A stretch of DNA of 32,421 nt from positions 1-32,421 of the forward strand of contig NZ_POUA01000035.1 of the NCBI RefSeq assembly GCF_003236385.1, read 5' to 3'. The notes beneath the pieces were generated by a model. That model did not search any database and was not told the DNA's origin. It worked only from the letters and a program-made list of their open reading frames with translations. Below are positions 29,723 through 29,779 of the stretch, one piece after another. How positions within the stretch are numbered: the stretch's first letter is position 1; each line of letters begins with the position of its first letter. The stretch comes from Spongiactinospora gelatinilytica (lineage in GTDB: Bacteria; Actinomycetota; Actinomycetes; Streptosporangiales; Streptosporangiaceae). Both the position numbers and the translations under genes were made by a program.

Positions 29723-29748
29723 GGCTCCTTGGGGGGTGAGAAGGAGCC
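29723..29748 (-). promoter_or_regulatory. Hairpin that buries the peptidase ribosome site
   Basis: Perfect 8-bp stem: in the mRNA GGCUCCUU, a 10-nt loop CUCACCCCCC, then AAGGAGCC. The Shine-Dalgarno AAGGAG is wholly in the 3' arm and the GTG start follows 2 nt later. The fold should block ribosome entry unless it is opened by another structure or factor. Function inferred; pairing is seen directly. Confidence 0.65.
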
Positions 29749-29750
29749 CG

Positions 29751-29779
29751 GCCGGGTGCGAGTTAGGCTCGCACCCGGC
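29751..29779 (-). promoter_or_regulatory. Second leader hairpin, upstream and adjacent
   Basis: Perfect 12-bp arms GCCGGGTGCGAG and CTCGCACCCGGC around a 5-nt loop, 2 nt from the ribosome-site hairpin. A CCCGGCCGGG palindrome at 29746-29755 bridges both stems, so mutually exclusive folds are possible, as in attenuators. No U-tract follows. Confidence 0.6.

Follow-up and report, generated by a model that had tools for sequence, protein, structure and literature searches.

In this study, we analysed the tandem hairpins upstream of a secreted M4-type metallopeptidase gene of Spongiactinospora gelatinilytica. With a probability of roughly 0.6, they represent the 5' leader of the peptidase mRNA, in which an anti-Shine-Dalgarno (anti-SD) arm pairs with the Shine-Dalgarno (SD) sequence and lowers translation initiation beneath LysR-type control. 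Translation is thus probably restrained by the RNA itself, besides the action of the neighboring LysR regulator. The predicted fold is rare and is conserved in the family Streptosporangiaceae. The window, that is, the whole stretch of DNA analysed here, comprises 32,421 nucleotides, and its relevant features are as follows.

26466 to 29720, minus strand: secreted metallopeptidase gene with FTP, PepSY, M4, M28 and CBM5/12 domains (Pfam, open reading frame); GTG start codon at 29720
29723 to 29748, minus strand: SD hairpin (stem 2), as RNA the anti-SD arm GGCUCCUU, the loop CUCACCCCCC and AAGGAGCC (sequence, minimum free energy (MFE) fold and related leaders)
29730 to 29723, minus strand: 3' arm of stem 2, AAGGAGCC, the SD; 8 perfect pairs
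29731 to 29736, minus strand: CCCCCC tract within the loop of the SD hairpin, near-universal among the leaders
29740 to 29731, minus strand: loop of stem 2, CTCACCCCCC
29748 to 29741, minus strand: 5' arm of stem 2, GGCTCCTT
29750 to 29749, minus strand: spacer CG between stems 1 and 2
29747 to 29756, minus strand: palindrome CCCGGCCGGG, bridging stems 1 and 2 (sequence)
29762 to 29751, minus strand: 3' arm of stem 1, CTCGCACCCGGC; 12 perfect pairs in a GC-rich hairpin
between 29768 and 29762, minus strand: loop of stem 1, CCTAA (CCUAA in RNA)
29779 to 29768, minus strand: 5' arm of stem 1, GCCGGGTGCGAG (read from the sequence)
29791 to 29800, minus strand: conserved promoter-like element GTGGGGTTAC (GGGGTAC in most relatives), a putative -10 element
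29807 to 29825, minus strand: LysR-type box ACATAGCGCCACGTTATGG of the T-N11-A kind, family consensus CCATA-N9-TATGG
29836 to 29854, minus strand: second LysR-type box CCATAACCCCGTGTTATAA, overlapping the lysR stop codon
29849 to 30823, minus strand: lysR-type regulator gene (Pfam HTH_1 and LysR_substrate, open reading frame), upstream and codirectional, not divergent

The earlier note on this DNA had described two perfect hairpins of 12 and 8 bp, 2 nt apart, and had placed the ribosome site of the peptidase in the 3' arm of the second. Both claims were borne out: AAGGAGCC holds the SD before the GTG at 29720, and the MFE fold of the 149-nt leader consisted of exactly these two hairpins. Its MFE was -63.1, compared with -45.8 ± 3.5 in dinucleotide shuffles (z = -4.9), and 0 of 200 shuffles were as stable. 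The window contains two perfect hairpins of at least 12 bp with a loop of 3-10, whereas a mean of 0.15 was observed in shuffles; the other one, GAAGGGGAGCCG/CGGCTCCCCTTC at 16381-16409, resembles a terminator at the end of a gene. The predicted cost of opening the SD was 6.5 kcal/mol in the leader of about 78 nt and 9.0 kcal/mol in a 60-nt context, and among 205 control genes whose SD is GGAG, just 4.4% had an equally high cost. The complementary anti-SD lies upstream of the SD in the leader of the window and would be part of the same transcript. Two other small elements are found nearby on the minus strand. An ATGTGA at 29722-29717 overlaps the peptidase GTG and provides an ATG with an immediate stop between the SD and the GTG, and a CCAAGC-TCAG-GCTTGG hairpin at approximately 29714-29699, partly kept in relatives, lies just within the peptidase coding sequence.

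Further comparison was based on 67 leaders from Spongiactinospora, Streptosporangium, Planobispora, Microtetraspora, Nonomuraea and other genera. In most of them, GGCUC(CU) could pair with AGGAG(U/C)C across the CCCCCC tract. An anti-SD helix of at least 7 bp was present in 45 of the 67 leaders and in 38 of the 205 control genes (p = 2e-13, a value inflated by sequence kinship). The distance between the two arms varied from a few bases (L179 and the window) to about 40 nt (L046 and L055) while the arms persisted, so an RNA hairpin fits better than a DNA operator. In L179, a more distant copy with a shortened loop, the helix GGCUCCUU:AAGGAGUC was formed again and GCGGAC replaced the CCCCCC tract in the loop. 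As a group, the leaders showed a slight excess in median opening cost over the controls (5.2 versus 3.9 kcal/mol). Several lineages have weakened or lost the anti-SD arm, and in a few of them (L036, L052, L151 and L157/L168) it was weakened without compensation. It should be noted that the leaders of Planobispora, Planomonospora and some Streptosporangium species (L033, L035, L037, L041, L054, L057, L062, L065 and L166) contain, inserted between AGCCC and GGGCUCC, an additional large hairpin that is GC-rich and varies in sequence. Overall, the SD hairpin is old and conserved in kind across Streptosporangiaceae.

Many relatives insert an inner stem within the SD hairpin, with variants such as AUCCCU:AGGGA, GUCCC:GGGAC and ACCCC:GGGGU. 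In the covariance-model alignment, which was fitted to the structure and is therefore biased in its favor, 96% of cells could pair, compared with 40-63% when partners were slid. Two-sided changes occurred at four pairs of this alignment, three of them in the inner stem (three of its five pairs); we disregard the lone change of this kind in the SD helix because the Nonomuraea rows L133 and L143 are misaligned. An independent swap test also favored the inner stem (p = 0.012, a comparison inflated by relatedness). The arms of the SD helix itself were near-invariant, and their own pairing was no better than that of swapped arms (p = 0.98); with near-invariant arms and no covariation, the SD helix rests on conserved complementarity. 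Compensatory changes in orthologs had been set beforehand as a test of the hairpins. Such changes were found in orthologs within the inner stem of the SD hairpin and were absent from both stem 1 and the near-invariant SD arms.

Analysis of the occurrence of the leader revealed that, as far as sampled, it is restricted to Streptosporangiaceae. Apart from the congeners included in the search (S. rosea and S. sp. TRM90649), leader-bearing peptidase orthologs were identified in Streptosporangium, Planobispora, Planomonospora, Microtetraspora, Microbispora, Sphaerisporangium, Rhizohabitans and Nonomuraea, all of which belong to this family. The leader was not seen at more distant M4 paralogs, for example L011-L013 and most Actinomadura copies, and no M4 homologs at E ≤ 1e-190 were present outside the family in a class-wide sample. 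A search of 297 genomes of the family with a degenerate pattern yielded approximately 43 matches, mostly at leader-bearing peptidase genes, versus approximately 20 for a reversed control pattern. The covariance model (R1), which is tuned to the inner-stem type and misses the window copy genome-wide, gave two weak matches outside the family, in G325 (L207, E 0.0013) and G316 (E 0.09). The former, at approximately 1500-1540 of L207, precedes a gene of an actinomycete from another family and is possibly due to chance.

Among the alternatives, a two-state RNA switch has to be weighed first. The GGGCU(C) part of CCCGGCCGGG can also pair upstream, in competition with the anti-SD pairing, with AGCCC in most relatives and with GAGCCU in Spongiactinospora. 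Such upstream pairing would free the SD, and a ligand, a protein or a trans RNA, perhaps touching the CCCCCC loop, would select the state. In most leaders, the two pairings share GGGCU. In the two TRM90649 copies (L009 and L010) the MFE fold takes GAGCCU:GGGCUC and the SD is predicted to open at 1.5-2.5 kcal/mol, and the MFE fold of L060 is the SD-free state. In Streptosporangium, a long-range stem CUCGGUGUC:GACACCGAG together with CUUUGG:CCAAGG would also free the SD; it contains some compensated pairs (GGUGUC:GACACC versus GAUGUC:GACAUC) and outperformed swapped arms weakly (p = 0.045). However, the upstream hairpin paired no better with its own arms than with swapped ones (p = 0.54), and the genes suggest no ligand logic. 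A helix joining the C tract to the 5' motif CUUUGG looked attractive in single leaders (L106, L168, L197 and L198) but was rejected because it failed overall against swapped arms (p = 0.84); it is also absent in the window. Thus, a switch of this kind, although possible as a ligand- or protein-driven device on the basis of the predicted folds, appears unlikely. The same holds, somewhat more strongly, for its extended form, a Streptosporangiaceae-specific regulatory RNA of secreted hydrolase genes that would alternate between the CCCCCC-loop SD hairpin and the upstream hairpin overlapping it, switching translation between two states in response to a ligand, an RNA-binding protein or a G-rich small RNA.

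The region upstream of the hairpins has a common layout. In the 5' to 3' direction, a T-N11-A box (CCATA-N9-TATGG) is followed after approximately 12 nt by GTGGGGTAC or a variant and, 15-18 nt downstream of this GGGGTAC-like element, by an RTGTCA-like motif (GTGCGA in the window); then come GGGCUC(CU), the CCCCCC tract, AGGAG(U/C)C and the start codon. A leader peptide starting from the conserved RTGTCA motif was considered and rejected, as frames and stop positions scatter and one copy reads ATGTGA. A lysR gene was located upstream in the same direction at 29 of about 51 leader-bearing loci; a scan of leaderless M4 loci, which included some with short flanks, found none. The earlier suggestion of LysR control on top of the RNA is plausible in view of this linkage and of the T-N11-A box in the leader promoters. 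A box upstream of the promoter together with a linked lysR gene is the arrangement of a LysR regulon, in which the boxes would be binding sites.

The leader and its upstream blocks are not confined to M4 peptidase genes. In L103 and L105 the leader precedes M28-only peptidase genes, which share the signal peptide and lack the M4 domain. The box, GGGGTAC and RTGTCAG were also detected before a dioxygenase-like exported gene in Spongiactinospora (L005, L006, L197 and L198), with a tract of at least five C before the SD in three of the four copies. In L006 (G000:C265, approximately 1380-1640), this gene carries CBM5/12 and is divergent from the gene of a secreted S1-type peptidase that also has CBM5/12; the names dioxygenase-like and S1-type come from reading the sequences. 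This second gene set suggests a small regulon of secreted proteins, namely a LysR regulon of chitin-binding ones.

Because the spacing of the upstream blocks is near-fixed, they may be DNA elements and are not claimed here as RNA structure. Extended to all conserved blocks, this idea would make them the operator, promoter and initially transcribed region used by LysR and RNA polymerase, and the hairpins a by-product of GC-rich sequence. The near-constant spacing of CCATA-N9-TATGG, GGGGTAC and RTGTCA and the recurrence of the upstream blocks before the non-homologous dioxygenase-like gene are consistent with it, and DNA elements may well account for the upstream blocks. As an explanation of the whole feature, it is improbable: operators keep their spacing, whereas that of the SD arms shifts several-fold, and the inner stem shows compensatory changes.

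Stem 1 has a different history from the SD hairpin. It was found only in the window species and, identical, in S. rosea; it is missing from both copies of the third congener, TRM90649, and its positional counterparts in other genera showed no arm-to-arm covariation (swap test, p = 0.54). The tandem pair is therefore not supported as the unit described earlier, and stem 1 is a lineage-specific add-on to the SD hairpin. It could be regarded as a species-level form of the competing upstream region; with the competitor locked up in stem 1, the closed SD hairpin should be favored. Stem 1 might instead be a terminator of lysR read-through or a 5' stabilizer of the peptidase mRNA with no translational role. 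Its very stable, GC-rich 12 bp and its position approximately 70 nt past the lysR stop, where the mRNA probably begins, would suit such a role, but it lacks a U-tract, is absent in TRM90649 and is not conserved elsewhere, which makes this explanation quite improbable. Finally, an RNA thermosensor, also raised in the earlier note, would agree with the pairing of the SD within a short hairpin but is extremely improbable, given eight perfect pairs (five G-C) and a predicted opening cost of 8.0 kcal/mol at 20 °C that is still 6.1 kcal/mol at 42 °C.

On the basis of these results, we favor the SD-masking leader, in which the anti-SD GGCUCCUU would pair with the SD AAGGAGCC and keep the CCCCCC tract in the loop, where the tract would have a role of its own. 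Exported proteases are costly and are dangerous in excess, and masking of the SD may damp translation initiation of a potentially self-damaging enzyme. Opening of the hairpin might be modulated by the competing pairing of GGGCU with AGCCC or GAGCCU, and transcriptional control by the LysR-type regulator would stand above this translational damping. Masking of the ribosome site by the leader would give these genes a further layer of control, at the level of RNA, and we found no published cis-regulatory RNA of such type for these actinomycetes. In addition, the near-invariant CCCCCC tract is a constraint worth following.

With respect to known systems, the leader RNA is new to Rfam, and its mechanism is of a known kind. 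No Rfam family (riboswitches and small RNAs included) reached or approached its gathering score in the window or its relatives, in agreement with the earlier statement that no known riboswitch could be recognized, and our literature search, which covered LysR-protease leaders, C-rich SD loops and RNA motifs of Streptosporangiales, returned nothing relevant on this leader. The 6C small RNA and other C-tract-loop RNAs of Actinobacteria carry six cytosines in a hairpin loop. The likeness is limited to this loop, whereas the present element is an mRNA leader adjoining the SD and does not match the Rfam model. Translational riboswitches with an anti-SD/anti-anti-SD platform share the overlapping alternative pairings of GGGCU, either with AGCCC or with the SD, but here there is no Rfam match, the competing arm shows no covariation and the genes encode peptidases. 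LysR-controlled secreted proteases with an adjoining LysR-type gene and a T-N11-A box are known in actinomycetes. Our locus shares the LysR-type gene beside a secreted metalloprotease gene and the box, and differs in the upstream, codirectional position of lysR and in the presence of a structured leader. The closest resemblance in mechanism is to the general class of SD-sequestering 5' leader hairpins, in which the SD next to the start codon is likewise paired with an anti-SD arm upstream of it; in contrast with that general class, the hairpin described here is family-wide, with a conserved CCCCCC tract between its arms and an optional, covarying inner stem.
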